Shown here: piece by piece, positions 10,671 through 34,864 of the stretch
How positions within the stretch are numbered: position 1 is the stretch's first letter
Layout of the letters: each line of letters begins with the position of its first letter
From: Pseudomonas sp. MPC6
Lineage (GTDB): Bacteria > Pseudomonadota > Gammaproteobacteria > Pseudomonadales > Pseudomonadaceae
Length of the DNA: 64,000 nucleotides
Direction: 5' to 3'
Assembly: GCF_006094435.1 (NCBI RefSeq)
Contig: NZ_CP034783.1
Location: 3,685,001-3,749,000, forward strand
Program-made: the position numbers and the translations under genes
Notes under the pieces: model-generated
Database searches by the model: none
Told to the model about the DNA's origin: nothing
What the model saw: only the letters and a program-made list of their open reading frames with translations

Positions 10671-11156
10671 GTAGTTCTCCAGTCGCGCGAAATCCTGATT
10701 CAACCCTATATCAAATCACCAAACGCGCCACCCTGGCAGCTAATTCGCCAGCGCAGCCAGCAGTTGAGCGAGTACCCAGGATTTTTATCCTTGGCTGGGG
10801 GATGGCCGAACCGGTCTTTTTCCAGCGGCATCGCTTGCACTGTGCCTCCTGCTGCCCTCGTTCAAAAAGCCCCGCAAATCAAGAAGTTGATTTCCAAAGC
10901 TGCGGGCGATGGAATGAAAGGAAAATTCCTACATGCGGAATAGCATCGGCTGACAGCTCTTTCCTCAAAGCCTCTTTAAAGTCCGCACCTGTAATTTGTG
11001 ACAGGTTCCAAGACGCGCCAATCGCGCTATAACGAAACCGTGCCTACAGCCCCGCCACCGAGGTCTGAAGGACGGCCGCGCGAACCATGCCTTTTATGAA
11101 ATAGGAAGATTCTGCCGCGCCCACGCCGTCAATGATGATGAATGGGAGATTCAATT
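10671..11156. other. Intergenic region between aruH and luxR-type gene
   Basis: No convincing gene is visible in these ~490 bases. Their main content is the lux-box promoter listed at 10987-11033; the rest includes the divergent aruH upstream region and a ribosome site (GGAG at 11145) for the gene at 11157. Confidence 0.6.
10987..11033 (+). promoter_or_regulatory. Perfect lux box with -10 hexamer
   Basis: ACCTGTAATTTGTGACAGGT (10987-11006) is a perfect inverted repeat with 6-bp arms and 8-bp spacer. Its arms are the same as those of the classical Vibrio fischeri lux box. TATAAC follows at 11028-11033, so the box would be centred near -42 of a start around 11040, the class II position used by LuxR-type activators. 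It reads toward the HTH-only LuxR gene at 11157. Confidence 0.75.
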
Positions 11157-11441
11157 ATGTACCGTTCCACTACCGACTCAGTCCGGTCATCACCTGCCCG
11201 GGCAAGCTTCCAGCCACCGGAGTGCAACCAACCCCAGGCCATCAAGCTCACCGCCAGGGAAAAGGAAGTCTTGCAATGGAGCGCCATTGGAAAATCGTCC
11301 TGGGAAATCGCCCAGATAATCGACTGCACCGAGGCCGGTGTGAATTACCACTTTTGTAACATCCGCCGAAAATTCGGCGTGAGATCGCGCTGGATCGCCA
11401 TGGTCATGGCGCTGGAACAAGGCTTGATCCAATCGTCTTGA
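11157..11441 (+). CDS. HTH-only LuxR-type regulator
   Basis: 94 residues from ATG 11157 (GGAG eight bases upstream; ATG 11142 is an alternative). Residues from about 36 form a LuxR-type DNA-binding domain: [20 protein letters not shown], then [14 protein letters not shown] and ALEQGLI. The pattern (EVLxW, GKSxxEI, NxxRKxGVxxR) is that of acyl-homoserine-lactone LuxR proteins rather than NarL-type regulators. No autoinducer-binding domain is present; the first ~35 residues are polar and look disordered. Its promoter carries a perfect lux box. No luxI-like gene is in the window. It may be a constitutive or dominant modulator of a quorum-sensing regulon (inference). Confidence 0.82.
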
Positions 11442-11491
11442 ACCAGCCCCTCTGCAGCGGTCAGCGTTACATGCCCCTGTAGAGACAATTC

Positions 11492-12217
11492 ATGAATATG
11501 GAACACGCCACACGGTTGACCCCGCTGCGCGAAACAGCCTGTGACGATATGCCGGTATCGCACAGGCAACAGCCGGACAAAACACTGCGCATCATCCTCG
11601 CCGACGACCACCCCGTGGTACTGCTGGGGGTTGAAATGGCCCTCGGCAACACATTTTCCATTGTCGCCCGAGCCCACGACGCCGATGAGTTGATCGCTCA
11701 TCTGCATTGCACGCCCTGCGATCTGTTGATCAGCGATTACTCGATGCCCTACGGGCGCTTGCCGGATGGTTTGGCATTAACGGGTTACCTGAAACGCCAT
11801 TTCGGACAGATACCCTTGATTGTGATGACCATGCTGCGCAACCCTTCCCTGCTGCAGGCGTTGCTTAATTCAGGGGTTCGCGGTCTGTTCGACAAACGCA
11901 GCCCCTTGAGCGAGTTGAAGCAGGCGGTATACACGGTGGCAAGAGGGCGTCGATATCTGTGCCCTGCCTTCAGTAGAATCCTCGATGCCCAGGCGTTGCC
12001 CTCGTCAGGCATCGCCGAGCCTTTGGTCAGCCTTTCCCAGCGCGAGCTGGAAGTGGTGCGGTTGTTCGTGCAGGGGCTGTCCGGACGACAGATTGCCGCG
12101 CAACTGAACCGCAGCGAGAAAACCATCAGCCGACAAAAACGTACCGCCATGGACAAGTTGGGACTTGGCCATGACGGTGGGTTGGTGGAGTTTGCGCGGG
12201 TGAGCGGGTTGAGATAA
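11492..12217 (+). CDS. NarL/RcsB-type response regulator
   Basis: 241 residues. Receiver domain: acidic pair in IILADDHPV, phospho-acceptor Asp in LLISDYSMPYG, and the conserved lysine in LFDKRSPL. C-terminal LuxR-type helix-turn-helix: LSQRELEVVRLFVQGLSGRQ, then EKTISRQKRTAMDKLGL. It follows the HTH-only LuxR gene by 50 bp on the same strand and is convergent with the RHS1 operon. No sensor kinase is nearby. It resembles RcsB/BvgA-like regulators that often control fimbriae or surface factors; the target is not known. Confidence 0.88.
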   Translation: MNMEHATRLTPLRETACDDMPVSHRQQPDKTLRIILADDHPVVLLGVEMALGNTFSIVARAHDADELIAHLHCTPCDLLISDYSMPYGRLPDGLALTGYLKRHFGQIPLIVMTMLRNPSLLQALLNSGVRGLFDKRSPLSELKQAVYTVARGRRYLCPAFSRILDAQALPSSGIAEPLVSLSQRELEVVRLFVQGLSGRQIAAQLNRSEKTISRQKRTAMDKLGLGHDGGLVEFARVSGLR

Positions 12218-12320: not shown

Positions 12321-13154
12321 TCACCGGTCCCCTTCAAATCTAGGGTTAGGTCTACGCACATCAAGCACGGTCCGTTTCGGTGCGCGATGAATCCGCGTAC
12401 CTGATGGATCAATACCTCCTCGACTTAGGTAGTCGTACCGCTTGACATGCCCCAGGTTATCAAATTCCTTTTGTGTGAGCGGCTTAGGCGTTTTTGCCGC
12501 TCCAGGCAGCTTTGGAGCCGTTTTAGGCACCGCTGCCGGTGGTACCTCAGGATGCACATCCGGCGCAAAACTCACTGAGCGCGGTTCACGTGGTGCAGAA
12601 GAACCTACGCCTCCACCGTGTCCAACGGAGATCCCGGATGGTGCTGCAGCCGTGTACTTCACTGTCTGATTTCCCCCGGTCATCGTGTAACCGGCAAGAA
12701 CATCATCGACTTTCGTGACAATACGAGATGCGCCTTCCATACCAGCACCACCAGACCCTATTGCTCCGCCAGCGTTGCGCCCCAAGTCGACAACAGTGTC
12801 CCCTACCCTCGAAACACCCCTGGCAAGTTGGTTGAACGGAACCATATGCCCCGTCTTATCCGTATGTTGAATCGGATCCCCCATTACATACATATACGCA
12901 TTCAACCCCCCCGCCCCAAACGGACTCCAGCTATCCGGACTGTTAAACCTCATCAACAACGGACTAAACGCCCGATACCCATTCCCCAGTAAATAACCGC
13001 CGGTGTGCGCCTCCCGCAATTCACCGTTGTACCCCAGATGAGTACTTGCCGGGTGTTCGCCACTGCGATGACCGTAGGCCGAATAAGCGAAGTCATTGTC
13101 CGTGCCGGACCCTGCTTCACGCAGCACGCTGTTCTTGTCATCGCCGGCCAGCAT
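12321..13154 (-). CDS. RHS1 C-terminal fragment: core end plus variable tip
   Basis: 277 residues. Residues 1-104 continue the RHS core (YLLGNGYRAFSPLLMRFNSP, GAGGLNAYMYVMGDP, then TDKTGHM, a variant of the usual DPTGH core end). Residues 105-277 are an unrecognised tip with a Gly-rich part, a Pro-rich linker (PEVPPAAVPKTAPKLPGAAK) and a basic end with RRPNPRFEGDR. It overlaps the preceding RHS1 frame as TGATG, and it can be joined to it by a -1 shift. Only 103 bp separate it from the next gene, so there is no immunity gene behind it. The tip could be a toxin; nothing identifies its activity. Confidence 0.75.
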   Translation of the reverse strand: MLAGDDKNSVLREAGSGTDNDFAYSAYGHRSGEHPASTHLGYNGELREAHTGGYLLGNGYRAFSPLLMRFNSPDSWSPFGAGGLNAYMYVMGDPIQHTDKTGHMVPFNQLARGVSRVGDTVVDLGRNAGGAIGSGGAGMEGASRIVTKVDDVLAGYTMTGGNQTVKYTAAAPSGISVGHGGGVGSSAPREPRSVSFAPDVHPEVPPAAVPKTAPKLPGAAKTPKPLTQKEFDNLGHVKRYDYLSRGGIDPSGTRIHRAPKRTVLDVRRPNPRFEGDR

Positions 13155-13179: not shown

Positions 13180-16100
13180 GATGCTCGGCGAGCACCCTGC
13201 CGTCGGCTTGCATGAATGTGCTGCTGTTGGAGCCCTGCTGCAGTGTGTGAATCTCACCGTCCCGGTAAAAACGGCGCTGTTGATCGGTACCGCTGCTCTG
13301 GCTGGCAAGCACATCCAGAGGGTCGTAGGTGTAACCACTCGGCGTTTCACCAGGCAGCCCGCTGACACTGATCAAACGGCCCAGGTCGTCATACCCGAGT
13401 GTGCGCCCTGCTTCATCGCTCACCATATCGCCGTCGTCGTTGTAAACCAGCTTGATTTCCTTGGGTAGGTAATCCTCATGATCATTGAGCACAGTACTCA
13501 ACTGCGTGGGATCCAGCGGGTTGTCATAGGAATATTCGGCAAAGTTGGTGCCATCAGGAGAAGTGGTTTGCACCTGTATCAGGTTATCCAGTTCGTCGAA
13601 GATGAAAATCTGCATATCGATAGGTTTGTTGTAAGGGTCCAGAGGTTGTTGCGTGCCCGTGCAGATGTACAATTGAAGACGCCCGCGAGCGTCGTAGTCA
13701 TAGGTTTCGTCGCGCAAGACTGTCTCGCCTTCGGTCAAGGCGCGGTGGATCAATTGATCGACGACGTTGTAAGCCTGGCTCAGTTGTTGCGTTCTACCCT
13801 CGCCAAAATCGAACTCGCGTAATATTTCGCGCCCCTGATCGTCGTACGTCAACTTGATCTTCAGGCTCAGTGGGCCGTCCGTGGTTTCGATACGCTCGGT
13901 CTGGCCTTGGGCGTTGTAGGCGAACGTGGCAGCGGTAGTGCCCAATGTCGTGCCCATCAACTGGCCGCTGGATTTTTTGTAGTCATAGACTTGATCCTGT
14001 TCAAGTACGTCAACGTACTTCAACAGTCGGGCTTGCCTGCTGTAGTGATATTCCATCGTGGCTGGCTCGTGGCCTGGCTGTTCCCGGGTTTCGCTCCTTA
14101 TCTCCCCGGTGGAGTAGTACGTGCGAGAAAGTTTCAACCCGCTTTCTTCACTCCAGTCCAGGCGGGCGTTTTGCAGATCGTAGTTGTAGGTTGCAGCAAT
14201 GCCCGCCGCACTGCCTGCGATACTGGCGGTGCTACGTTTAGTCGGCTCCTCACCCAAGGCCGGCACATATTCGTAGTCGACTTCCACGAGCGATGGGCGC
14301 TTGACTTTACAGGGTTGAGTCTCGCCCGGTTTGAAACCATAGACAGTGACACGGCCCCCGGTGATCGATTTGATCATACGATCGAGACCGTCGAACGCTT
14401 GCTGGCCCAACTCTTTCGCGTTGACGCCTATCCAGATGGGCAGGTCCTCGCTGCTATGAGGTGCATAACGACGTTCAACCACGGCCCCATCTGGCAAGGT
14501 GCTCTCGACCATGCGGTCAAAAACGTCATACACATAGGCTGTCTTGTAGCCCAGGGCATCGAACTCATGGGCCGTACGCCCCAGGCCATCATAGTGATAG
14601 CGGTGCTCGCTGTACGGCTCGGCTAGCGGGTCGCTCGGTTCGTCGCCTTGTTTGTAACGCTTGACGTTGTCGGGCTTGTCAAACAGGTTGTTGTGGGTGA
14701 CGGTCTTGCCCATGCCCTCGATCCAGGTCGTGGTGGTCTGTGTGATCGGGTCGCTGACCTCGTGCTCCTCGACCCCGTCCGGACGCACCACGCTGCGCTG
14801 CTCGCCCCAGTCGTCATAACGGTACTGGCTGCGCAGTTGCAGATCGTCCTCTTCGTCGGCGCTGCGCCAGTCCAGCTCGATGTCCTCCACCCGTTGGCCC
14901 AGGGCGTCATAGGTGGCGTAATAGGTGTCGCGAAACGCCTGCGCCAGGGCGCCGGTACGGTGGTCGGGGTCCTGGCGCTGTTCCTTGATCACCCGGTTCA
15001 AGCCATCGAACAGGGTTAGGGTTCGCACGCCCTTGACGTCGGTGGCCTCCTGGCAGGCCTGTTGGCCATCAGCGTTGGTCAGGACGTAGCGGTAAGTGCG
15101 CGACGCCACGTAGTCGGTGTCCGGGGCCACGGTTTCGCAGGTGACCCGCAGCAACGCGTCATAGGTGTAGCGAATTTCCACGTCGCTGTCGTCGCGGGTG
15201 AGCAAGGGTTCGCCGTGCAGCAGCGAGTGTTCCAGGGTCACTGTCTTTTTCGTGTCCGTGCCGTCGACTCCGTGGTCGAAACCCTTCAGGATTTCGGTGG
15301 TTTGCAGCACGGTTTCGCCGGCAAAGGCACTGGGCAGCTTTCGGTAGGCGTAGTCGGTGGTGGTGGTCCGGCCGTTGAGGGTGATGGCCTGCTGTTCGCG
15401 CCGGCCATGCTGCAAGGGGTCGCGCGGTTGGTTGAAGGTGAGGTAGGCGCTGTGTTGCAACGCGTGCTCCTGGTCGCCCTCGACCTGCAACAGGGTCTCT
15501 TCGGTCAGCACCAGCCAGGCGTCCTCGGCAGTGCCCTGGACGGGAGGCATCAGGTCGTAGCGGTTGCGCGTGCGCAGCACCGGGGCACCCTTTTCCCGAT
15601 CGGAGGCAGGGGTCACGGTTTGCTCGTGCAGGTGGCGGACAAAACCGTGCGGGTCAGGCGGGCACTCCCCGGGGATGCCTGCGGCCGGGAAGTAGCTGTA
15701 GCGCTCCTTGACGCCATTGGCCTGGGTCTGTTCCGTCAGGTTGCCGTGGGTGTCGTAGGCCGTGAGCACGTTCTCGGGGCGCCACGTCCCCCCTTCGAGG
15801 CCCCAGCGGCTTTCGACACGTCTGGGCAGTTGGCACTGCGGAGCCTGGTTGCTGAACGGCTCCTCGAGTTTGTCATCGGCGTAATAGGTGGTGAGGACCT
15901 GATGAATGTTTTGGCCCTGGGTGGTTTTTTCTTCGCTGATCAGGTGAAAGCGGTTGAAGGTGCGCTCGATGCGGCGCACCGGCACCTCGTCGGCATAGTG
16001 GGTTTCGGTGGTGCCGTACTGATAGCGCCCGGCGGCTTTGTAGAGGTTGTCCAGCCCATTGTCATCCCAGCCGATCGGGGCGTTGTTACCCAGGAAGTTG

Positions 16101-17023
16101 TTGCTGCTGCCGGGCAGTTCGCTGTTGTCATAGGCGTAATGCACCTCGAGCATCGGCTGCTTGAAACCGGGGCGAATCTGGTGTTTCCAGACCCTGGGCA
16201 GGGGGGCGCGCGCATTGCCCGGAAAACTGTGGCCGACGCCGGCGTATACAATGGTTTCATGGCCGCCTACCGGGGTCTTGACCTCGGTGATGCACAGCAG
16301 GCCATTGACCTTCTGGTAGGTGAACCGCCAGGACGCGTCTGCGGTGGGCAGGACCACTTCATACACCTCATTGCCCGAGCCGCTGTTGCGCAGTTTCATC
16401 TCAAACCGCGCCAGGCCCCCGCCCGGCGTCCCGTCAGGGCGCAACAGGATTTCCACGGCGCTGGTGGGCAGGTTGATCTCCAGCAGGGTGCTGCCCTGGG
16501 CATCGGTCACCGTGTGCAGCCGGCTGATGCCGTTGTTGAACGGCAAGTACCGCAGGCTGACCTCGTGGCCTTCGACGCTGTAAATGCTTTGCGGCAGGAA
16601 GAGGTCGCCTTCGCGCCCCAGTATTTCAACGACCCCGGATTTGTGCACGATCCGATAGCGGTTCGGCGTATCTCGATGGAAGTGGAAGCTCTCGATTTTC
16701 TGCTCGGCCATGAGCAGGCGGGTGGGATCGGTGCTGCTGGAACCGGTGACTTTGAAGGTTTCCCCGGAGGACAGGGCGATCACCTGTTTATCGGCGTCGT
16801 ATTGCGACAATCGCAGTTCCCAGCCCACGCCAAACCCGCTGTCGCGGGTATTGTACGGGTTGAAACTCAGACTGGCGGGCACGACCGGGCCGCTGAGGTC
16901 ATTGGCTTTGATTTCCGGCAAGGCGAGGTTGACGGTGTACTGGCCGGTGCGGGGGTCGACACCGGACTGCACGAAACTGAGGAAGTTGAAGGCGTTGGAG
17001 TGGACCGCGGTCTTGGCGCTCAT
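13154..17023 (-). CDS. RHS/YD-repeat protein RHS1 (core part)
   Basis: 1,289 residues. It has a start MSAKTAVHSNAFNF, an N-terminal sandwich-like region (ALPEIKANDLSGPVVPASLS), then many YD repeats (YDALGQRVED, YHYDGLGRTAHEFDALGYK) ending at EGAGPKS. RHS proteins form hollow shells that enclose a C-terminal toxic tip, and are delivered through T6SS, Tc complexes or other routes. This frame ends before the core is complete, at the site described at 13152-13179. The first 833 codons are the same as those of RHS2. It is the last gene of a leftward operon with the three genes at 17120-24323. Confidence 0.9.
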   Translation of the reverse strand: MSAKTAVHSNAFNFLSFVQSGVDPRTGQYTVNLALPEIKANDLSGPVVPASLSFNPYNTRDSGFGVGWELRLSQYDADKQVIALSSGETFKVTGSSSTDPTRLLMAEQKIESFHFHRDTPNRYRIVHKSGVVEILGREGDLFLPQSIYSVEGHEVSLRYLPFNNGISRLHTVTDAQGSTLLEINLPTSAVEILLRPDGTPGGGLARFEMKLRNSGSGNEVYEVVLPTADASWRFTYQKVNGLLCITEVKTPVGGHETIVYAGVGHSFPGNARAPLPRVWKHQIRPGFKQPMLEVHYAYDNSELPGSSNNFLGNNAPIGWDDNGLDNLYKAAGRYQYGTTETHYADEVPVRRIERTFNRFHLISEEKTTQGQNIHQVLTTYYADDKLEEPFSNQAPQCQLPRRVESRWGLEGGTWRPENVLTAYDTHGNLTEQTQANGVKERYSYFPAAGIPGECPPDPHGFVRHLHEQTVTPASDREKGAPVLRTRNRYDLMPPVQGTAEDAWLVLTEETLLQVEGDQEHALQHSAYLTFNQPRDPLQHGRREQQAITLNGRTTTTDYAYRKLPSAFAGETVLQTTEILKGFDHGVDGTDTKKTVTLEHSLLHGEPLLTRDDSDVEIRYTYDALLRVTCETVAPDTDYVASRTYRYVLTNADGQQACQEATDVKGVRTLTLFDGLNRVIKEQRQDPDHRTGALAQAFRDTYYATYDALGQRVEDIELDWRSADEEDDLQLRSQYRYDDWGEQRSVVRPDGVEEHEVSDPITQTTTTWIEGMGKTVTHNNLFDKPDNVKRYKQGDEPSDPLAEPYSEHRYHYDGLGRTAHEFDALGYKTAYVYDVFDRMVESTLPDGAVVERRYAPHSSEDLPIWIGVNAKELGQQAFDGLDRMIKSITGGRVTVYGFKPGETQPCKVKRPSLVEVDYEYVPALGEEPTKRSTASIAGSAAGIAATYNYDLQNARLDWSEESGLKLSRTYYSTGEIRSETREQPGHEPATMEYHYSRQARLLKYVDVLEQDQVYDYKKSSGQLMGTTLGTTAATFAYNAQGQTERIETTDGPLSLKIKLTYDDQGREILREFDFGEGRTQQLSQAYNVVDQLIHRALTEGETVLRDETYDYDARGRLQLYICTGTQQPLDPYNKPIDMQIFIFDELDNLIQVQTTSPDGTNFAEYSYDNPLDPTQLSTVLNDHEDYLPKEIKLVYNDDGDMVSDEAGRTLGYDDLGRLISVSGLPGETPSGYTYDPLDVLASQSSGTDQQRRFYRDGEIHTLQQGSNSSTFMQADGRVLAEHQEGAGPKS
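14525..17023 (-). repeat. Left arm of 2,499-bp inverted repeat (5' part of RHS1)
   Basis: This segment matches 25770-28268 in reverse orientation with equal length. Translations in the coding frame and in long antisense frames agree, so the DNA is apparently identical. Similarity stops right at the ATG on one side and at GTATGAC on the other. Confidence 0.92.
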
Positions 17024-17119
17024 GAGGTGTACCTCAACTGGACAACAATAGTTGTTGAAAAATGGCAGTCAGGAAAGTGCGCCGCAATAAAATTGCCACG
17101 CACCCTGTTAATGCGTTAA

Positions 17120-19993
17120 TCAGGTCAAAACGTTCAATTCCAACTTGTTTCGATTTCCACGAATCAAATGTATGTTAAGACGATGACGGTTCCCCTCAAG
17201 ATCCACCAAATCCACGATCATCGCCGTGTTGTCTAACTTTTCGAGATCAGTTGCAGTTGAACGACGCAGATCATCGACACGACTTAATGTGATGAGTAAT
17301 TCACCCGATACCGGATTCTGGTCGGATTCATACTCCCGCTTCAGCACTGGCGCATTTCGTTTATCAAGAGCATCGTCGAATTTTATAACTCTGTTCTCCG
17401 GCTTTCCTTCATCGCCGGCGTTGAACTCGTTAAAAGAATAGCCGGTATAGCTGAACATCGTCTCGTTGCCATAGGTACTCTCCCACTGCACAAGAGAGCG
17501 AGGGCCCTCGAAAATGCACCGGGTAAACAAAAGGGGAATACGTCCCTCACGCTGATATCCCACACGCCAGTAATCGGTAGTACGCAGGAAATAATCGAAG
17601 TCATTGTCCCCCGGTGGCAGCGGATCCCAGCCAGGCCCCGTCGGCCGACCGACGCCGCCTGCTCCACCGCCTGCCACACGCACATCCTTGAAACTGTAAT
17701 GATCAGCTATCTTGGTCGGGATTGGCATCGGCGTCAGCGTGACATGGCCCTCGTCCTCTGTTTCGTTCGGGCTCGGATACAAATCCGAGCGAAAATCACC
17801 CTTGTCATTGTCAGCGACAAACATGGCGACATATCGTTCGCTACCAGGGGTGTCCGTTGGACCCTGGCCCCGAACATGCACATAGAGGCTTTTATCTACG
17901 TGGTTGAACAGGTCGTCGCGGGAAACAGGTTCCTTCTCTTGCTGATGGAATCGATTCGGTTCCAACCTGCACGCCCAACGTAGCGGACTACCGTACTCGA
18001 TCCCTGCCTCTTCGATAAAGGGCATGTGACTGGGGGTTGCCTTCGAAACCAACCTCAAGCTGGCTTCTTCATCGCCGCTCAATGGGTAAGTCGTACCACC
18101 CACGGGCTCGGTCACTACCTCGATTCTGACCTGCATTTGTTGCATACCATTGGCATACGCACGACCGACTACCTTACTGATGTTGAACTTGCTCAAGTTT
18201 CTCCAGGTCGGTTCCGTAACGGCATTTGTCAGCTGCACGATGCTGTAGCCGTAATACTGGACTTCTTCCATGTCATCGAGCAGTTCACATACAACAACCG
18301 AAACAGGATTGGAAAATATCGCCGGTGCCTTATAAAGTCCACTTTGCAAAACGTCGCCCTCACCCAGAACCGTCCAGCGGCGCTTGAGCTGCGTATTTCT
18401 GTGGTTCTCTTTCAACTGCAGATCTGCCCCGCGGTTGACACTTCGAGTAAACCCGGGCGAGACATCAAAATCAGGGACAAACCTGAGCAGCAAGACCGAG
18501 GCCTGGACGCTCTCTCCGGTCACGGTGTCCCTGGCTTCAATACATTGCACCACCACATCTTCCGCCAAGGGGTCGGTTGGCGGCGTATAAATGGCCGTAT
18601 TGCCAGCAGCCACCAGTGAACCGTGCTGCGGGACACTCCAGGACAACGCGGCGCCATTCAACGCCGATGCCACGAAGGTCACAGGTTGCGGTTCACCGCG
18701 CACAAAACGCCGCACGGCCGAAGGGGAAATGGCCATTGCCTCGGACGTTACCAGCAGTAAGGCGCAGACCTGATGACCCTGAGCGGTGGCCGGATCGGTA
18801 TATGAGGCCGTCACCACGATACGAACCGTTTCCCGGCCTGCCTGATCGAACGCCACAGGCGTGTATAAACCACTGGTCAGCCCGATTTCGCCGGCAGACT
18901 TATGCGTATTCAGGCTGCGCACACTCCAGCGCACACCCGTCAGAGGCTTGCCGTCTCGCAAGGCCTGGTATTGGAATGGTTTGCTGCCAGCCTGCAGACT
19001 ATGCAACTGTGGATTGATGGTAATGGCCGTACGCGAAGGATCAATATTGCCAAACACCGCCAGGTCATAAGGTACTTCCCGATCCCGTTCGATAAAAACG
19101 TTATCTTCGCCCGGGAACAACAGGCTGTGTATCAGTACCAGTTTGTCCTCATCCGCGTAGGGCACGAATTCCTTTGAAAGGATCAAGGTCGCCGAATACA
19201 TGTCACCCTGGGCGTCCTGGTCATCCGGAATCAGATAGGGAAAATCCCGGGGGGGGATTCCACCACCATGCTCACTGGCCTTGAGCTGGATAAACACCAC
19301 CACCGCTCCATCGCGATACGTCGAGGACTTGACGTCATTGCCACCTGGAGCCGGCTGGGTCCGCATCTCGAATCGCTTCGGCGTCAGCGGGTTGTAGCCT
19401 CGCAAATCGAGCATGCCCAATTCAAAGACTCGCCGGTGAGGAGGCAGTTCGTCGAAACGTTGCTGGAAGTACTCGCCGAGACATTTGCGAGCCGCCGGGG
19501 TACTGGCCAGGTTACATTCGATTTTCTGCACCCGGGACAGATCCAGAATAACCCGTCCAAGATCGTCGATTTCACCGGTTACAATTGCCAGATCGACGTC
19601 GATCGTCACGGTAAAACCATGGGCTTCACTGATGGTATAACTGTACAGCACTGAGTCGAACCCATCACCGACACTATACGCGGTATAACTGCCTGACAGG
19701 ATGTTCAACGTGAGTGTGGCAATGGAATTGGTGAAATCTGCAGTTTCAAACGACAATCGCGGCGAGGCTAAAACAATGTCGCGCAGCTCAGCATATTCGG
19801 TGTTTAGATCATTAGTGAATGCTTTACCGGAGAACGGCGGCATGTAGCCAGAGCCATCGTACTTGTCGATCCATTGTTGTAGCAATATCCGATTGAGACG
19901 AGTGCGGTTGAACACGGTAATAGCGCCCCACCCTTGCGTAATCGAACCTTGTTTCATCTGCCGCACAATATCGGCACGCGAGTTACCAGCCAT
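17120..19993 (-). CDS. P47/TULIP-like protein with Ig-like C-terminal region
   Basis: 957 residues, no signal peptide. Residues 1-310 resemble the clostridial P47/OrfX (TULIP) family: [17 protein letters not shown] at 21-37, a following beta-rich part ([17 protein letters not shown]), and [11 protein letters not shown] near 267. After AVFGNIDPS (about 312) come bacterial Ig-like units with the [10 protein letters not shown]...[10 protein letters not shown] pattern and a long beta-rich C-terminal region with a Gly-rich linker near 780. It is a paralogue of the 783-residue protein upstream. Start ATG 19993 has GGGAG. P47 proteins are thought to bind lipids or assist toxins; that role here is inference from the RHS neighbour. 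Confidence 0.6.
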
Positions 19994-20057
19994 GATAATG
20001 CTCCCAAGTAGTATAATCAGCGTATATTGAAGACTGTAGCTTGATGTTCAATTCAAC

Positions 20058-22409
20058 TTACAGATTGTCGATTGGTTCCGGTTTATTGGGGAGTTCAAAG
20101 AGTGGCCACGGCAAAATAATCCAGCCCTCTTTGCTGGCATCATTGGCCTTGCGTGCGGTGATGAGTACAAATCGTTGCTGCCCGTCCGGATCGCCCGTGT
20201 ATAAACCGTCGCTGTCGATGCCCTCGTTCCCCGCTGAAACTTCCCAGATGGCAGTCACGGGGTTCTCACGATTATCCCGGGCTATCAATTTCGCCTTACC
20301 CTGCGGGAAAGATGAGTTGTCCAAATCGACAGTAATAGTCAAATCCGCTTGATAATGAGTAACAACGACATAGGCCGTTTGGGTTTTACGGGTCGCGAGG
20401 TTCATGACCTCGATTTCATCGATGAGGAAAGAACCTTCCAATGTCGGGTCTTTCAGGCCTGCGGTATAAGTGTTTTTACCGTCGCTCCCGCCCCTGGCCG
20501 GGATGGTGCCAGTGCCTCGTTTGACCTTCCATTCCAGGATACCCTCGCCCAGAGTATGGGCCGACAATACTCGAGTCACGGACGCTTCGGAGGTGGAGGC
20601 GCTGCAAATCTGCACGACCGGGTTGACGGTGATGTCCCGGGCGACCACGGTCACCAGGGCCGAACTGCTGTGATTGGACGCAGTGGCCGTGACCCTGACT
20701 CGGGTGAAAGTGCCAGAAATGTCAGCGAGGGCGGGCGACGAGTACAGTCCAGTGTCCTCGTCAATGCTCCCGATCTCGCCAGTGCTGCCGGGAATGGCTG
20801 CCACACTCCATTTGACTTTGCCGGCGAAGTCTCCTGAGACGGTGAATGGATGCGTGGCACCGTGGCCCATCAAATGTTCCAGGGGGGCAACAGTAAAAGG
20901 GTTGACGACCTTGCCAAAAACAACCATATCGCCGGGAAATTCCGCACTCTTTTGTTTTATAGTTTCATGACCGGCGAACAGAATACTGTTGAGCACAAAC
21001 GTATTAAACTCAATAGTTTTACCGAAAAGCAGTCCAGTGGTATCGTCAAGTGCTCTTTTTATCGTCGTTGCATACTCTCCTCGAGCGGATTCAAGATAGA
21101 TTGCCACCTCCGGAATCGGCACATATCGCGCACTGAGTTTCATATCCACCAGTAGATTTTTTACTTTCGCCACTACACCTCCAGCATCCGCATCAACAAC
21201 AAACTCGATGTCCGCGTTCACCTGCAATGCGATATTCATCGTATACTCGTCTGAATCCTCTTCCCCACCCCTCCTTTTAACCAAACACTTCTGCTGACGA
21301 TAAACGCTGCTGTCCCCCCAGCCAAATCGAATTGTACGATCATCCTGCACTGTTATAGAGAGTCCATCGCTGTCGTTATTCGCAGCAGGAAAAGCAAATT
21401 TCAAAACCTCAACGATATAAGAATCCGTATGCCCCACAAACCCGGGTAAAAAGAATACGCCAATGCTCGGCTGAGCTTTGAGCACATTTAGAAAATTTCT
21501 ATCATCATAGGTTTCAGAAAACTTTACGCCATGAGAGAACATGCCATTCATGCCTTCAGCAATAATTCTACGCATCAGCAGATAATTACTCAGCAACATG
21601 GCCGAGTCATACTCCCCGCCCCCATTATTCGGAATCAAGCTCCTCCAGTCGTCAGTAGGCGGTGTCCCGCCTTCCTGATCACCCTCCATGCAGATAAACA
21701 GCTCCACCGCACCGTCACCAAAATTATCTGCCGTATTGAGCTCTGCGCCTTGCGCCGTGATGGTCCGCAGCCTGAAGGATGCCGGCTTCAGGTATTGCTG
21801 ATCGGTATAGGCAATCTTTCCAAGGTGATAGAGCCTTTTTTCCTTGTCTGCGCCCTTGAAGTATTGCTTGAAGAATTCACCGCCGATACGGCGTTCATAT
21901 GAAGAGTTGGCAAACGTCAACTGCCACTCCCCTTTTGCTGCCTCGGCGGCGCCGAGATCGAGAACCACTTGTCCGGTGTCCTTACCGACCTGGCCACTGA
22001 TTTTCGACAACACTACGTTTTCGGCAATGAGGTCGGGATGATCGAGCGCATCGATAGAGTGCACCGCAATCGCGCGCTTGTGACCGACTGTATTGTCGAT
22101 AGAAACCTGTGTCCCGCCGATGACCGCCATTTTCATATTGGCCTCGCCGCCCGCCGCCTTCGAACTGTCTTCAAAAGACAGTCGTGGCACATCGGTAACC
22201 CAGTCGCTGAGGTGCTGCCAGTTGGCATCGCCAACGGCAACTGGCTCATTGATCGGCTCCAGATAACTATTGACGGTGAATTTGTTAATGTAGTCCTGCA
22301 GCAACAAGGTATTGCACTTGCTGCGATCATAAGCGACCACTGCGCCCCAACCGGCTGTCCTCGGTTTAAGTGCCAGCCATTCCAGCAGTTCTTTTTTTGA
22401 GTTGGCCAT
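20058..22409 (-). CDS. P47/TULIP-like protein with bacterial Ig-like repeats
   Basis: 783 residues. The N-terminal GWGAVVAYDRSKCNTLLLQ (18-36) and the EYDSAMLLSNYLLM segment parallel the 957-residue neighbour and resemble P47/OrfX proteins. The N-terminal unit extends to about residue 480 (VVFGKVVNPF). Ig-like units follow, with IGSIDEDTGLYSSP...RVRVTATAS and a second unit ending ITARKANDASKEGW. No signal peptide is visible, so export would need a non-Sec route or cell lysis. Start ATG 22409 has AAGGGA upstream; 64 bp separate it from the next gene. The family call is by motif only. Confidence 0.58.
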   Translation of the reverse strand: MANSKKELLEWLALKPRTAGWGAVVAYDRSKCNTLLLQDYINKFTVNSYLEPINEPVAVGDANWQHLSDWVTDVPRLSFEDSSKAAGGEANMKMAVIGGTQVSIDNTVGHKRAIAVHSIDALDHPDLIAENVVLSKISGQVGKDTGQVVLDLGAAEAAKGEWQLTFANSSYERRIGGEFFKQYFKGADKEKRLYHLGKIAYTDQQYLKPASFRLRTITAQGAELNTADNFGDGAVELFICMEGDQEGGTPPTDDWRSLIPNNGGGEYDSAMLLSNYLLMRRIIAEGMNGMFSHGVKFSETYDDRNFLNVLKAQPSIGVFFLPGFVGHTDSYIVEVLKFAFPAANNDSDGLSITVQDDRTIRFGWGDSSVYRQQKCLVKRRGGEEDSDEYTMNIALQVNADIEFVVDADAGGVVAKVKNLLVDMKLSARYVPIPEVAIYLESARGEYATTIKRALDDTTGLLFGKTIEFNTFVLNSILFAGHETIKQKSAEFPGDMVVFGKVVNPFTVAPLEHLMGHGATHPFTVSGDFAGKVKWSVAAIPGSTGEIGSIDEDTGLYSSPALADISGTFTRVRVTATASNHSSSALVTVVARDITVNPVVQICSASTSEASVTRVLSAHTLGEGILEWKVKRGTGTIPARGGSDGKNTYTAGLKDPTLEGSFLIDEIEVMNLATRKTQTAYVVVTHYQADLTITVDLDNSSFPQGKAKLIARDNRENPVTAIWEVSAGNEGIDSDGLYTGDPDGQQRFVLITARKANDASKEGWIILPWPLFELPNKPEPIDNL

Positions 22410-22502
22410 GATGCATCCCTTTCAATGAGTTTATTATTTCGATCGCCCGAACGATTCAATACAGAACCGCAGAATTTACAATGCAAGGTTCAACATCAGG
22501 TG

Positions 22503-24323
22503 TCAGGCACGCAATGTCAGCTCGGAAGAGTCCCTGAAGGCAGTATGTGTTCGCCCTTCATCAAAGCTGACTGTGACCGCCACCTTGAACTTGTTACCGA
22601 TCCCGATTTCAGTCCGAAGAAACGATTCGGGCAGCCACGAAGAAATGTGCGGCGCTAGTGCCTCGGTTTCGGTAAGGGGATGATTCTTGATTAAATAATA
22701 ATCCGTCCCTACGACCTTGATATTGAGGATTTGGTCTTGCGCCATATACGCCCAACGTCCTAGCTTGAACTCGGCCCCCTTGGGATCGGTGATCCGTTCA
22801 AGAGAAAGCTCAGAGGTGCCTGCTGCCGGTACACACTGAATGGTCGGGAAACGATCCAGGGGGAATGGCACGATCTTCAACCAGAAGGGGTCGGAGTCCT
22901 GCCAGTTTTCCGGCGGTTCGCCATTGGGAACAACCCGCCAGAACACTTTCAACCGCTCACGCGAATTGACACCCGCCCCCATGTTCATTGCAATGGCATT
23001 CTTTGGAATATCGAATGCTCGCCAGTTGCCTGCAACCGGCGTCGTCACCACGCTATGGCCCGCCGTACCAGGTTCACCCCAATACAAATGGATGGTGTCG
23101 GCTTCATCGACAATCGCCTCGGGGCGCACATTCGCCCGACTGCCGCTTGTGGTATCTGCCGCGTTCATTCGGCCTTCATTCGGCTCGTCACCTGGCTCCG
23201 GTCCAGCGTCCTCGAGGCTCGGCATTGGAATATCCAGCGGCTGGCTTATCAGCAAACGCAGGGGTTCACCGGACAAGACGCTACCTGGGCGCGCATATTG
23301 GTAGGTGAGCTCCGCATTCTTGCGATTGTTGGCCACCAGCCAAGAATGCTCCAGCTGCAATGTCAGGGTACCGCTGTCGAATGTCGAGGGGTCGAGGCGC
23401 ACCGAGACAGCCGCATTGGTGCCGGTGCTCACAGTCGCATTCACCAGTACAGTGTCACCCACCCGAGCCTGGGGGTGTAACGCAACCCGCAACGTCACGC
23501 CCTCTGGAAAACGCACGGGATCGATAGGGCCTGCGCCGTGGCCATCGATCGCCAGTTCAGGTAGACGCGGCAGAGCCGGCGCCAAAATCTGCAGGGTTTG
23601 CAGCGCAGAAACGCTAGGTTCGCCTCCCCCCGCGTAGTCGATGCGATAACTCAACTCCAACCGGCCGCCTGAAATCAGCAGGACTTGAGTTCTGTCCACC
23701 AGTCGCGTCAATGGCCGACCGACCTGCGCGTCTGTCACCTCCCAGACGGGATTCAAGGGCGGCCTTGCGTTACCGTTCCTGTCGAAGCCGCGCCATTGCA
23801 GTGTGACTTTATCGCCCTTCGCTATAGCCGCATACGGCGGTACGGCTACCGTGACGCCAATGGCGGGTAATACTCTTATGTCAGGATCCAATGCCAGATC
23901 ATGGGATTCGCGAACCAGTGGAACAGGCAAGTGCGACGTGAGCGAAGGACGTATTCCGACGTAAAAAAACAATCGTTTTGATTCGGGTCCCGGTGTGGGC
24001 GCCATGGGGTCCTTGACTGAGTATGAATAAAACACCCAGCCCTGATCCAATCTTTGTAGCGAGTCATTGGGGAAGCTAATCGGTAGCCCTTCAGGCGTCA
24101 GGGTGTCATCAATGGGATAGGCAACACCTGCCACGCTATCAATAGCGTCACCTTGTGCCGTACAACCTCGCCAGTTCACAAGAATGAAATGTCCCACGTA
24201 TGTTTCTATGTCCGGAAACCAGACATGGGTAACCAGGCTTCCCGTGTCCAACTGTGCAAGGTCTAGCGCATTATCGGCATCCAGAAAAGGGACTTTCGGT
24301 GCGGGATACGTAACCGCTGTCAT
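22503..24323 (-). CDS. Ig-like multidomain protein, first gene of the RHS1 operon
   Basis: 606 residues, acidic, beta-rich, without a signal peptide. Repeated units contain Ile/Val-x-Lys/Val-Gly-Asp-x-Val motifs (YAAIAKGDKVTLQWRG, ARVGDTVLVNATV), and the protein ends with VAVTVSFDEGRTHTAFRD. The same end pattern is found in the 506-residue protein at 36009-37529 (KAYISFDNGQTWNG), so they belong to one family with the 661-residue protein at 40194. ATG 24323 has GGAG nine bases upstream. A lux-box-like site lies about 100 bp upstream. Function unknown; probably a structural or adhesive component. Confidence 0.65.
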   Translation of the reverse strand: MTAVTYPAPKVPFLDADNALDLAQLDTGSLVTHVWFPDIETYVGHFILVNWRGCTAQGDAIDSVAGVAYPIDDTLTPEGLPISFPNDSLQRLDQGWVFYSYSVKDPMAPTPGPESKRLFFYVGIRPSLTSHLPVPLVRESHDLALDPDIRVLPAIGVTVAVPPYAAIAKGDKVTLQWRGFDRNGNARPPLNPVWEVTDAQVGRPLTRLVDRTQVLLISGGRLELSYRIDYAGGGEPSVSALQTLQILAPALPRLPELAIDGHGAGPIDPVRFPEGVTLRVALHPQARVGDTVLVNATVSTGTNAAVSVRLDPSTFDSGTLTLQLEHSWLVANNRKNAELTYQYARPGSVLSGEPLRLLISQPLDIPMPSLEDAGPEPGDEPNEGRMNAADTTSGSRANVRPEAIVDEADTIHLYWGEPGTAGHSVVTTPVAGNWRAFDIPKNAIAMNMGAGVNSRERLKVFWRVVPNGEPPENWQDSDPFWLKIVPFPLDRFPTIQCVPAAGTSELSLERITDPKGAEFKLGRWAYMAQDQILNIKVVGTDYYLIKNHPLTETEALAPHISSWLPESFLRTEIGIGNKFKVAVTVSFDEGRTHTAFRDSSELTLRA

Positions 24324-24420
24324 GTTCGGAACTCCATCGTTGATCAGTGGGCAGTCACCCGACCCGTAAAAATAATTGCTTCGACGGAGGTGTTTTTACG
24401 CTTTAATTTTCGACTTGCCT

Positions 24421-24440
24421 ACCTAACAGAACTGCTAGGT
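24421..24440. promoter_or_regulatory. Lux-box-like site between two divergent RHS operons
   Basis: ACCTAACAGAACTGCTAGGT fits the Pseudomonas las/rhl-box pattern CT-N12-AG, with ACCTA/TAGGT arms. Rightward, TATGGT starts 22 nt after the box (24462-24467). Leftward, a weaker TAAAAA-like hexamer lies at 24393-24398 (minus strand). One site could therefore activate both the RHS1 and the RHS2 operons. Confidence 0.7.
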
Positions 24441-24528
24441 TTACAGACCTGAAAAATACTCTATGGTTAACTCCAACCGGGCTTCTATTTTATGAGCCAA
24501 GTGCATTACTACTTAGGGAGATCAATAT

Positions 24529-24999
24529 ATGAACATCATTCGAGTTTGGCATCGCGCATTAATATTTGCGGGGAGCTTATTGATGGCAGGACAAATTTTC
24601 GCCGCGCCCGTTGATCCTACGCCAGTTGCATCTGCGACCAGTACTGGATTTTTGGTATTCGAAAATTGTCGCTTGCTAATACAAGAAACCATATATTCGA
24701 TAGGCAGAGGAGACGCTAGCGGTTGCCGAGGCGTTACCATCGATGACACATTTTCGCTTGAAGGGGTTCGCTCAGCCGTCTCGATTAGAATTACGACAGA
24801 GGTTGATTCTCAAAAGTACGGCGCCATCAACCTCAGGACCATCAAAGATAATGTCAACACGCCAAGCATGACGTTTAGATATTTAATGAATGCCCCTGCC
24901 GGAAAAGTCTATGTGCCTGGGCTTATTTTCCAGGGCGTAGAAAATCCTCTTTTCGTTAGCCGCCGCCTTAGTCAAATTGGAATACAATTAAACAAATAG
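24529..24999 (+). CDS. Small secreted protein of unknown family (paralogue A)
   Basis: 156 residues with a Sec signal peptide (MNIIRVWHRALIFAG...IFA, cleavage near residue 26 before APVDPT). The mature part has two cysteines (ENCRLL, SGCRGV) and a core LEGVRSAVSIRI...NLRTIKDNVNT shared with the next gene. The coding sequence is clearly more AT-rich than the surrounding genes. AGGGAG lies eight bases before the ATG. First gene of the rightward operon behind the lux-box-like site. I do not recognise the family. It may be a periplasmic or secreted partner of RHS2. Confidence 0.72.
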   Translation: MNIIRVWHRALIFAGSLLMAGQIFAAPVDPTPVASATSTGFLVFENCRLLIQETIYSIGRGDASGCRGVTIDDTFSLEGVRSAVSIRITTEVDSQKYGAINLRTIKDNVNTPSMTFRYLMNAPAGKVYVPGLIFQGVENPLFVSRRLSQIGIQLNK

Positions 25000-25172
25000 C
25001 CACGAACGCTCACATTTTTCAACGGCTAGAAATACCAACTTTCGACATCCAAAATTCATGTTGTAATTTACTCGCCGAGCAAACATACCTCACGTTCTTC
25101 GGCTTTACGTCTGACTTCACTTCAGCGGGCATTTTATTGCCCGACCTATAAATTTTATGATCGAGGCCTTCC

Positions 25173-25691
25173 ATGAACAATTTAAACTCAGCTGTACTCA
25201 ATACATTCCTGGCTATTTTTTTCTTGCACGCGACGCCATCGCTGGCAGGTACGGAAAGCACAACCGATACGAACCCTGGAAGAATAACATTCATCTACGA
25301 AAACGGCATTGAGCAATGTGGCGTCGACGCATCACCCCAAGTGTTCGAGATTAGTTATTATGCTGGCGGACCTGGAATTCGTCCTTGCGATCATAGCCGG
25401 GTTCGCTTTATTAAATTAGATGGCGTGCGCTCAGCCGTCACTATCCGCCTCTGGAGTTACTTACGCGGTGGTAAACCCGGCGGCTGCCAATCCAGCGAGA
25501 CCCATAATTTTACGCTATATCTAAGAACTATTAAAAATCCAACCAACACCCAGATTATAGATCTGAGAAACCTTGCAGACTACCCATTAAACACCCCTAT
25601 CCAGCCTGGCGTTACGCTAACAAATAAATATATAAAAGACGCCAACAAGATCGACAAAAACTTAAGTTGCGTCCAAGTGATTTATGACTAA
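25173..25691 (+). CDS. Small secreted protein of unknown family (paralogue B)
   Basis: 172 residues with a signal peptide (MNNLNSAVLNTFLAIFF...SLA, cleavage near residue 25). It shares LDGVRSAVTIRLW...LYLRTIKNPTNT with the 156-residue gene upstream. The mature part has four cysteines (EQCGVD, RPCDHS, GGCQSS, LSCVQV), enough for two disulfides. AT-rich; GAGG precedes the ATG. It ends 78 bp before the RHS2 start codon. No recognised domain. The gene pair looks like a local duplication. Confidence 0.72.
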   Translation: MNNLNSAVLNTFLAIFFLHATPSLAGTESTTDTNPGRITFIYENGIEQCGVDASPQVFEISYYAGGPGIRPCDHSRVRFIKLDGVRSAVTIRLWSYLRGGKPGGCQSSETHNFTLYLRTIKNPTNTQIIDLRNLADYPLNTPIQPGVTLTNKYIKDANKIDKNLSCVQVIYD

Positions 25692-25769
25692 CTCAGTCTC
25701 GGCTTATTTATACACGACTTCACTGACATCCCAGTGAGCAGCTTTTCGAAACAGACCAGAGACCTATCC

Positions 25770-28268
25770 ATGAGCGCCAAGACCGCGGTCCACTCCAACG
25801 CCTTCAACTTCCTCAGTTTCGTGCAGTCCGGTGTCGACCCCCGCACCGGCCAGTACACCGTCAACCTCGCCTTGCCGGAAATCAAAGCCAATGACCTCAG
25901 CGGCCCGGTCGTGCCCGCCAGTCTGAGTTTCAACCCGTACAATACCCGCGACAGCGGGTTTGGCGTGGGCTGGGAACTGCGATTGTCGCAATACGACGCC
26001 GATAAACAGGTGATCGCCCTGTCCTCCGGGGAAACCTTCAAAGTCACCGGTTCCAGCAGCACCGATCCCACCCGCCTGCTCATGGCCGAGCAGAAAATCG
26101 AGAGCTTCCACTTCCATCGAGATACGCCGAACCGCTATCGGATCGTGCACAAATCCGGGGTCGTTGAAATACTGGGGCGCGAAGGCGACCTCTTCCTGCC
26201 GCAAAGCATTTACAGCGTCGAAGGCCACGAGGTCAGCCTGCGGTACTTGCCGTTCAACAACGGCATCAGCCGGCTGCACACGGTGACCGATGCCCAGGGC
26301 AGCACCCTGCTGGAGATCAACCTGCCCACCAGCGCCGTGGAAATCCTGTTGCGCCCTGACGGGACGCCGGGCGGGGGCCTGGCGCGGTTTGAGATGAAAC
26401 TGCGCAACAGCGGCTCGGGCAATGAGGTGTATGAAGTGGTCCTGCCCACCGCAGACGCGTCCTGGCGGTTCACCTACCAGAAGGTCAATGGCCTGCTGTG
26501 CATCACCGAGGTCAAGACCCCGGTAGGCGGCCATGAAACCATTGTATACGCCGGCGTCGGCCACAGTTTTCCGGGCAATGCGCGCGCCCCCCTGCCCAGG
26601 GTCTGGAAACACCAGATTCGCCCCGGTTTCAAGCAGCCGATGCTCGAGGTGCATTACGCCTATGACAACAGCGAACTGCCCGGCAGCAGCAACAACTTCC
26701 TGGGTAACAACGCCCCGATCGGCTGGGATGACAATGGGCTGGACAACCTCTACAAAGCCGCCGGGCGCTATCAGTACGGCACCACCGAAACCCACTATGC
26801 CGACGAGGTGCCGGTGCGCCGCATCGAGCGCACCTTCAACCGCTTTCACCTGATCAGCGAAGAAAAAACCACCCAGGGCCAAAACATTCATCAGGTCCTC
26901 ACCACCTATTACGCCGATGACAAACTCGAGGAGCCGTTCAGCAACCAGGCTCCGCAGTGCCAACTGCCCAGACGTGTCGAAAGCCGCTGGGGCCTCGAAG
27001 GGGGGACGTGGCGCCCCGAGAACGTGCTCACGGCCTACGACACCCACGGCAACCTGACGGAACAGACCCAGGCCAATGGCGTCAAGGAGCGCTACAGCTA
27101 CTTCCCGGCCGCAGGCATCCCCGGGGAGTGCCCGCCTGACCCGCACGGTTTTGTCCGCCACCTGCACGAGCAAACCGTGACCCCTGCCTCCGATCGGGAA
27201 AAGGGTGCCCCGGTGCTGCGCACGCGCAACCGCTACGACCTGATGCCTCCCGTCCAGGGCACTGCCGAGGACGCCTGGCTGGTGCTGACCGAAGAGACCC
27301 TGTTGCAGGTCGAGGGCGACCAGGAGCACGCGTTGCAACACAGCGCCTACCTCACCTTCAACCAACCGCGCGACCCCTTGCAGCATGGCCGGCGCGAACA
27401 GCAGGCCATCACCCTCAACGGCCGGACCACCACCACCGACTACGCCTACCGAAAGCTGCCCAGTGCCTTTGCCGGCGAAACCGTGCTGCAAACCACCGAA
27501 ATCCTGAAGGGTTTCGACCACGGAGTCGACGGCACGGACACGAAAAAGACAGTGACCCTGGAACACTCGCTGCTGCACGGCGAACCCTTGCTCACCCGCG
27601 ACGACAGCGACGTGGAAATTCGCTACACCTATGACGCGTTGCTGCGGGTCACCTGCGAAACCGTGGCCCCGGACACCGACTACGTGGCGTCGCGCACTTA
27701 CCGCTACGTCCTGACCAACGCTGATGGCCAACAGGCCTGCCAGGAGGCCACCGACGTCAAGGGCGTGCGAACCCTAACCCTGTTCGATGGCTTGAACCGG
27801 GTGATCAAGGAACAGCGCCAGGACCCCGACCACCGTACCGGCGCCCTGGCGCAGGCGTTTCGCGACACCTATTACGCCACCTATGACGCCCTGGGCCAAC
27901 GGGTGGAGGACATCGAGCTGGACTGGCGCAGCGCCGACGAAGAGGACGATCTGCAACTGCGCAGCCAGTACCGTTATGACGACTGGGGCGAGCAGCGCAG
28001 CGTGGTGCGTCCGGACGGGGTCGAGGAGCACGAGGTCAGCGACCCGATCACACAGACCACCACGACCTGGATCGAGGGCATGGGCAAGACCGTCACCCAC
28101 AACAACCTGTTTGACAAGCCCGACAACGTCAAGCGTTACAAACAAGGCGACGAACCGAGCGACCCGCTAGCCGAGCCGTACAGCGAGCACCGCTATCACT
28201 ATGATGGCCTGGGGCGTACGGCCCATGAGTTCGATGCCCTGGGCTACAAGACAGCCTATGTGTATGAC
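25770..28268 (+). repeat. Right arm of 2,499-bp inverted repeat (5' part of RHS2)
   Basis: Matches 14525-17023 in inverted orientation over 2,499 bp with no length difference. The arms point toward each other with their 5' ends facing the 8,746-bp segment 17024-25769. Confidence 0.92.
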
Positions 28269-30626: not shown

Positions 30627-30657
30627 CTTTGACGAACACACGCAATTTAACTTTGAC

Positions 30658-30689
30658 GCCAAGTGCTATTCATTTGAATAGCACTTGGC
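30658..30689. repeat. 15-bp perfect palindrome downstream of RHS2
   Basis: Arms GCCAAGTGCTATTCA and its exact complement are separated by 2 bp. It lies 32 bp after the RHS2 stop. It lacks a T-run on the plus side, so it may be a rho-independent-like barrier, an RNA-stability hairpin, or a protein site. Confidence 0.7.
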
Positions 30690-30874
30690 GCTCGCATTTG
30701 CGCCTTCCATTCATGTGCAAATAATATTGAGAGTTCTCTCATATACCGCCCCCGCCCTGCCCCCTAACATCCCTCCCGCCGAGACACCTGACACTTTACC
30801 CCTACCCTCTACACACTACCCGGTCATGTCTCGCGCTTCAAACTACGACCGCTGTCATAACAGGATTTATTGAC

Positions 30875-31417
30875 ATGAAAAAAGCGCTTCTCGCTATCTC
30901 CATCGGCCTGGCCGCCGGCCTCGCCGGCACTTCGGCACTCGCCAACACTGGCACGATCAACTTCGAAGGCATGATTACCAGCAGCACCTGCTCGATCGAG
31001 GTGATCAACCCTGGTGACGGTAGCCCCGGCAACCTGGTCAAAATGGTCGGGGTCGATGCCAGCCGCTTCACTGCCATCGGTCAAGAATACGGTGGGAAAA
31101 TCTTCGACTTGCGTGTCCATGGGGGCTCCGGTTGTGCTCTGGATCCAGATAACCCTAACGTCGCCACGGTGACTTTCTCCGGCCTTCCGGATGATAGCGA
31201 CACTTATTTTGCAGTCTCGGAAGCCCAAGGCGTTGCAATCGCACTGAGGGATGCTAACAACAAGCTGCTGGCTCCCGGCTCGGAAAGCGACGAATACTCG
31301 ATAAACGCTGACCGTCCGACCGACCTGCGATTCTACGCCACCTATCGCTCCATTGCGACTGCAGTGACTCCAGGCGCAGCCTCCGCAGACATCCAGTTCA
31401 GCGTCGCCGTGAACTGA
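30875..31417 (+). CDS. Type 1-like fimbrial major subunit
   Basis: 180 residues with a Sec signal peptide (MKKALLAISIGLAAGLAG...ALA) and a FimA-type pilin fold: NTGTINFEGMITSSTCSIEV with the first disulfide cysteine, and GGSGCALDP with the second. The end SADIQFSVAVN is the C-terminal beta-strand read by the chaperone. First gene of a chaperone-usher operon (30875-35968). It would polymerise on the cell surface by donor-strand exchange. The 248 bp before it hold the palindrome at 30658 and no gene. Confidence 0.92.
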   Translation: MKKALLAISIGLAAGLAGTSALANTGTINFEGMITSSTCSIEVINPGDGSPGNLVKMVGVDASRFTAIGQEYGGKIFDLRVHGGSGCALDPDNPNVATVTFSGLPDDSDTYFAVSEAQGVAIALRDANNKLLAPGSESDEYSINADRPTDLRFYATYRSIATAVTPGAASADIQFSVAVN

Positions 31418-31519
31418 TACACCCCTGGCCCCCGTCGACATACAGCCTGTAACCGCTGGCGGGGGCACTCTGACAATCGCTCGGATACGTGCTCCACGTC
31501 CAGGCAAAAGGTATTTCCC

Positions 31520-32275: not shown

Positions 32276-32312
32276 GGGCTGCCCACGGCCTTTTTCCGTC
32301 AGGATAACGTTT

Positions 32313-34826: not shown

Positions 34827-34864
34827 ATCAGAGCAATATTCTCCTCATACCCAGGAAAAAAAAC

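Follow-up and report, generated by a model that had tools for sequence, protein, structure and literature searches.

Pseudomonas sp. MPC6 (G000 in our numbering of genomes; 7.22 Mb in 4 contigs) carries two large RHS genes that lie head-to-head and share their N-terminal halves. The locus falls within a 64,000-nt stretch, hereafter the window, to which all coordinates refer. From a central intergenic region three genes (P606, P783 and P957) run leftward to the first RHS gene, RHS1, which we term the operon RHS, while two genes for small, probably secreted proteins run rightward ahead of the second, RHS2, or solo RHS (Table 1). Behind the shared halves, or arms, the operon and solo genes continue into different ends, denoted O and S, respectively. 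Comparison with relatives points to repeated homogenisation of the arms and to inversion of the segment between them, and we consider it quite likely that both arise from recombination between the mirror-image halves of a two-RHS module.

The sequence-only reading, made earlier from the letters of the window, had described the first 833 codons of the two genes as an inverted repeat of 2,499 bp. This proved correct, with an exact repeat of 2,500 bp in which position i pairs with position 42793-i, spanning one base before each RHS ATG to codon 833 (833 codons plus one base). The distance between the arms, given there as 8,746 bp, is 8,744 bp. Immediately 3′ of codon 833 the two sides differ at 27 positions in the next 90 bp, and 5′ of the start codons they are unrelated, with 8 of 10 bases differing (17025-17034 against their partners). 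No further copy of the arm was found elsewhere in the genome by an arm DNA search (two matches, with the best 40 of 82 candidates scored) or an arm protein search at an E-value of 1e-100 (two matches).

Table 1 Features of the two-RHS locus in the window (strand given as +, - or. for none)
Feature	Coordinates	Strand	Remark
Left flank: LuxR-type regulator (11142-11441) and response regulator (11492-12217)	11142..12217	+	Outer marker accompanying the O end
277-aa open reading frame (ORF) in another frame	12321..13154	-	RHS-associated core motif (TIGR03696) and tip of the O end
RHS1, operon RHS, O-type core, 1,289 aa	13154..17023	-	Frame stops before the RHS core motif
Arm A: first 833 codons of RHS1 and 1 base upstream	14525..17024	-	0 mismatches to arm B over 2,500 bp
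Segment between the arms, probably invertible, 8,744 bp	17025..25768	.	Opposite orientation relative to the RHS ends in G110, G370, G018, G313 and drafts G331, G039
P957: P47-fold domain (residues 12-317), then Ig-like domains	17120..19993	-	
P783: profile-related to P957; no Pfam family	20058..22409	-	P783 and P957 profiles match each other's genes in G331
P606: Ig/FnIII-like multi-domain protein, first operon gene	22503..24323	-	Model pLDDT 86.9, pTM 0.60
Divergent intergenic region, presumed promoters of both gene sets	24324..24528	.	Gene layout
Small, probably secreted protein 1, 156 aa	24529..24999	+	N-terminal hydrophobic stretch by eye; no Pfam/NCBIfam family
Small, probably secreted protein 2, 172 aa	25173..25691	+	N-terminal hydrophobic stretch by eye; no Pfam/NCBIfam family; weak tblastn matches in some relatives
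Arm B: first 833 codons of RHS2 and 1 base upstream	25769..28268	+	Identical to arm A
RHS2, solo RHS, S-type core and tip, 1,618 aa	25770..30626	+	Open throughout; TIGR03696 at residues 1316-1395
Right flank: chaperone/usher fimbrial operon	30875..35968	+	

Ends and N-terminal halves across Pseudomonas

Relatives were taken from overlapping draws of 298, 398, 57 and 398 genomes, with one genome per species, and matched to the G000 arm. At most three candidates per genome were scored in the 298-genome and both 398-genome draws, in which copies may be missed, and the loci fetched were a selection made by eye from the match lists (G000-like pairs, and some chosen for a match at a contig end). The arm protein matched 67 of 298 genomes in the genus draw at an E-value of 1e-100, and the arm DNA matched 97 of 398 genomes at 0.001; a family draw gave matches in 49 of 398 genomes at 1e-70. 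Many matching genomes hold a head-to-head pair, mostly 5–19 kb apart with relatives of the same operon in between, and on this comparison the pair is a conserved Pseudomonas locus.

Trees were built separately for the cores (residues 860-1290 of 93 RHS proteins) and the N-terminal parts (residues 1-800). The core tree divides into two clades of 46 (S) and 47 (O) leaves, with support of 1.0 and a separating branch of 0.67, and clade follows position in 85 of the 93 leaves (solo genes in S, operon genes in O). The eight exceptions comprise the two copies in each of G110, G018 and G313 plus a single copy each from G331 and G157. Cores from the same genome were sisters in none of 43 genomes, against 18 of 43 for the N-termini; support for these 18 pairs was at least 0.97 in 15, 0.84 in G319 and 0.29 in G198, and G000 has no value, its copies being identical. 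Codon-aligned DNA identity between the two copies in the 43 genomes was 41–53% in the core and 51–100% in the N-terminal part. Judged from these sequences, O and S are two anciently separate RHS cores behind a shared N-terminus.

Clear tracts of high identity start at or near the beginning of the gene and end at various points, near codon 833 (G000), 740 (G018 and G313, the first 350 codons of G313 being left out of the comparison for reasons of frame), 610 (G110, G200), 590 (G298) and 500 (G160, G215). Variable inner ends behind a common start are what repeated exchange between mirror-image copies would produce, since homology ends at the start codon. The G000 arms are identical, yet differ by ~10% from the 0.88-kb piece of arm on a P. 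lini contig, and so they were equalised after the split from P. lini. Taken together, the comparison shows arms that have repeatedly been homogenised, which supports the earlier proposal that they recombine. The locus thereby offers a clean natural case of concerted evolution inside genes with a built-in control, in that alike halves are joined to old, unmixed ends.

Orientation of the inner segment

The ends were typed as O or S with profiles built without the five apparently swapped genomes, and the copy lying behind the P47-type operon was noted. Among 94 region records (G000 included), 60 had both ends on one contig and could be scored. The O end lies behind the operon in 56 of these, G000 among them (the common state), and the S end in four (flipped): G018 and G110, each a single contig, G313 in two contigs, and G370, a draft with both ends on one contig. 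The other records comprise nine single-ended common, three single-ended flipped (G331, G039 and G157), 17 unscorable and five inner-segment contigs. The script's call of G157 as flipped was not counted, as this locus is degenerate, with most of the inner operon gone and the S end on the other strand.

Two layouts are unusual in themselves. The inner segment of G157 is ~2.4 kb long and its S end lies on the opposite strand behind the arm, as if the end itself had turned. In G370 the genes between the arms are strongly diverged from the usual set, a P783-like gene is found beyond the arms, and the two arms align with one another in several overlapping registers, as though they contained internal repeats.

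Flipped loci were confined to genomes in which the two arms reach 95% identity or more across a minimum of 400 bp (4 of 11, against 0 of 49 others; Fisher p = 0.0007, in a test that ignores relatedness). The arms of the four are 98.3–99.1% identical. G018 and G313 pair as sisters in the core tree, and a single event may account for both; with these two merged and G370 dropped, the figures become 2 of 9 against 0 of 49 (p = 0.022). Flanking DNA is ~90% identical between G110 and G200 and between G110 and G370; G200 has the common orientation, G110 and G370 the flipped one. Two further drafts read as flipped: in G331 the P957 side bears the fimbrial flank and the S end, and in G039 the P606 side bears the regulator flank and the O end.

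The LuxR-type flank adjoins the O end in all 31 records that contain it (24 on the operon side, one, G039, on the solo side, and six unscored). Because this linkage of O end and regulators is unchanged, the part that turns is the one between the arms. The usher is a less perfect marker: of 52 records, 43 have it next to the S end and nine next to the O end. A first synteny test on 52 loci gave 378 concordant and 42 discordant among 420 genome pairs, the latter comprising 31 with G331, one G110/G200, two with G018 and eight with G142 or G144. These last eight were set aside as evidence of inversion, since core typing places both genomes in the common state, with fimbrial genes on the O side.

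From these comparisons we conclude that inversion has evidently happened in nature, in at least two lineages. The sequence-only reading had suggested an invertible segment and a comparison of its orientation among related genomes: both orientations do exist between related species, which supports the switch idea on an evolutionary time scale, and G000 itself has the common one. The operon RHS is a single open frame of S length, running into the other end type, in G110 (1,661 codons, stop included), G018 (1,653) and the draft G331 (1,690), while frames are broken in G313 and G370. RHS ends can thus change operon by inversion, with no displacement of tips.

The closest relatives of G000 are uninformative on orientation: the P. 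lini contig ends inside the arm, and in G107 and P. fluorescens PS691 an O-type RHS is represented only by its later part. In these last two the O-type RHS runs from about residue 214 or 352 and adjoins the regulators, and neither an inner segment nor an S-type RHS was seen in the stretches examined.

Possible mechanism, rival explanations and known parallels

We propose that ordinary homologous recombination acts between the mirror-image arms, which is the economical mechanism. Exchange without crossover would homogenise the arms and a crossover would invert the segment between them, with the cellular recombination machinery (RecA) presumably carrying out the exchange. After inversion, the end until then produced alongside the P47-type operon would be produced with the small secreted proteins, and the other way round, each end coming under whatever controls its new transcription unit of the divergent pair. 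In G000, it would move the operon RHS from a separately encoded tip to the intact S tip. Homogenisation may be favoured by a need for both RHS proteins to retain a common N-terminus compatible with the same partners from the operon. A bolder proposal, which we think somewhat less likely than not, is that the flip serves as a genus-wide reversible switch, working within populations, that decides which payload end is made with the operon. If so, where the O end has no detectable core motif or, as in G000, is split, a flip would act as an on/off switch for the attached tip; and if flipping in culture proved true, the locus would be a payload switch that uses general recombination only.

Several observations weigh against such a recombining, switching module. 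One orientation is found in 56 of the 60 scorable genomes, so that flips are either rare or one orientation is favoured, and of the 11 genomes whose arms reach 95% identity or more, seven have the common orientation. With one genome per species, orientations are compared between species only. The perfect separation of O and S by the end profiles follows by construction, the swapped genomes having been chosen on the core tree beforehand, and the independent figure is the 85 of 93 leaves. Within the arm of G313 the flipped operon copy is in two frames, and both copies of G370 are in pieces; of the four flipped loci, these two may be in decay. Matches of the G370 inner genes to the operon profiles are also weak (157 bits for P606, 134 bits for P957).

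We give an even chance to an explanation by gene conversion only, in which non-reciprocal copying keeps the N-terminus alike for the same partners and flips are rare accidents without a role. It competes with the switch, not with recombination between the arms as such. The excess of near-identical arms over inversions, the predominance of one orientation and the broken arm frames in two of the four flipped loci all fit this explanation. On the other hand, inverted copies that convert one another would be expected also to cross over, and the flipped genomes, found in at least two lineages, have nearly identical arms.

It is less probable, and on balance unlikely, that flips reflect import instead of inversion in place, with an incoming module recombining in either direction through the mirror-image arms. 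The inner genes of G110 and G200 share 38–41% protein identity between flanks of ~91% DNA identity, a case that import of a foreign module could explain, and other pairs with similar flanks, G160/G290 and G091/G265 among them, have no listed similarity of inner DNA. The arms of G110 and G200, however, match each other only at 74–79% over short stretches and would make poor substrates compared with the 98–100% identical arms within a genome. Divergence in their cores and tips also equals that of the inner genes, so that the entire locus has probably been replaced, and replacement does not of itself produce a flip.

Draft assemblies raise a further concern, that collapsed or misjoined repeats mimic both identity and inversion. 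A contig edge lies inside the arm in 15 of 25 genomes (from 31 records listed by hand, G157 omitted, several of them fetched for an end-of-contig match), and G331 and G039 are draft contigs broken at the locus in this way. Four contigs (G117 C6, G170 C77, G174 C59 and G634 C37) consist of the inner segment bounded on each side by part of an arm. Contigs broken in the arm fit a common near-identity of the arms, but orientation in drafts cannot be trusted; short-read assemblies of this locus are unreliable as to its orientation. As an account of the inversions themselves we regard artefact as very unlikely, since the arms are nearly but not wholly identical in G110, G018, G341, G160 and G200, all single-contig, and in the two-contig G313, and core type and flank concur on the flipped state. 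A local assembly artefact had also been named by the sequence-only reading as what might undo the identity of the G000 arms; since the pattern is found again in independent assemblies, some of them single-contig, the repeat is not due to chance and is unlikely to be an artefact.

A recent inverted duplication of one RHS gene, to which the identical arms of G000 might point, has practically no chance of being right, because the two ends that follow the arms are paralogues of old standing throughout the genus and many species have the head-to-head pair in a diverged form; the core tree refutes it for the entire locus.

Recombination between mirror-image arms has parallels elsewhere. In the sap (S-layer) genes of Campylobacter fetus, identical 5′ regions lie in opposite orientation, and recombination inverts the DNA between them and changes the expressed end. 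The likeness lies in near-identical inverted 5′ coding repeats with different 3′ ends and in the existence of both orientations, here between species only. The sap segment carries a promoter that flips among several cassettes, whereas here the genes number only two, each preceded by genes of its own, and a P47-type operon lies in the segment. By its action, sap is the nearest system known to us. Gene-altering inversions mostly use short sites and a dedicated recombinase, in contrast to the repeats of ~1–2.5 kb of coding sequence seen here; such programmed inversions, or intragenic invertons (Milman in 2023, Chanin in 2024), reportedly change part of a coding sequence.

For C. fetus, excerpts report switching in a recA-disrupted background (PMC5634654) and multiple sap copies (PMC4943207). 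The mating-type system of Hansenula polymorpha has two loci flanking an invertible chromosomal segment that exchange context (PMC4238957), and resembles the present case in having two loci either side of an inverting segment; it differs in being from a yeast and in setting an active against a repressed site. In the human Y palindrome P6, arm similarity above 99.9% is ascribed to gene conversion, with rare inversions (PMC3723533), and exchange of gene ends is not described in the part consulted. Clusters of orfX-p47 with RHS-repeat genes occur, for example, in Arsenophonus, Bacillus and Erwinia, and the excerpt of that account (PMC7020563) contains no two-gene mirror layout; the word 'inverted' is absent from the text, and its single mention of Pseudomonas is in the title of a reference. 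Titles and abstract openings in the open-licence literature gave no precedent for mirror-image or inverted RHS arms, which may nevertheless be listed in the main survey of gene-altering inversions.

Genes in and around the locus

The O gene of G000 is split. The sequence-only reading missed that RHS1 is not one uninterrupted gene in this genome, its core motif and tip sitting in an overlapping ORF in another frame (Table 1). The O frame of P. lini stops at about the same place; this shared break could be an old one, a natural split or a recoding site. The S tip of RHS2 (28269-30626, +) has, by eye, a hydrophobic glycine-rich stretch followed by four repeats of ~23 residues. Both genes bear hallmarks of RHS polymorphic toxins, with YD/RHS repeats and a core motif before a variable tip (PF05593, TIGR01643, TIGR03696), the motif of RHS1 lying in the separate ORF. 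For an immunity gene directly downstream, two gaps were checked, one of 248 bp from RHS2 to the fimbrial gene and one of 103 bp from the RHS1 tip ORF to the response regulator; neither holds a Met-started ORF of at least 40 aa. Pfam at an E-value of 0.001 returned RHS_repeat only for RHS1 and RHS2, with neither SpvB/TcB-type N-terminal domains, as in the TcB-TcC part of Tc complexes (TcA partners were not searched for), nor the N-terminal PAAR/VgrG link of type VI Rhs proteins. A phmmer search of the arm protein against the PDB gave no match.

The description of the upstream genes as an Ig-like/P47-like operon holds at the level of fold for P957. Its whole-chain Foldseek search placed Ig-rich chains in the top 50 at a template-modelling (TM) score of about 0.1, and P47 appeared only in a second look, which assigns the protein a P47/OrfX-type fold; a profile of P957 had no match in the PDB. 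P606 likewise matched Ig/FnIII-rich chains in Foldseek, with low whole-chain TM.

A promoter scan of 24200-25850 found four sites against 2.5 (sd 1.4) in shuffled sequence, giving no support for promoters there, and a terminator scan did no better than shuffles. Pfam scans of 14 proteins (7 of them without any Pfam family) and NCBIfam scans of eight revealed no recombinase family, a weak negative, as not every ORF was scanned. Short repeats and palindromes of ~30–110 bp also occur in the window (43678-63854, 5023-9456, 52405-56168 and 30263-30690); where the same one is present at more than one place, it is probably REP/REPIN-like.

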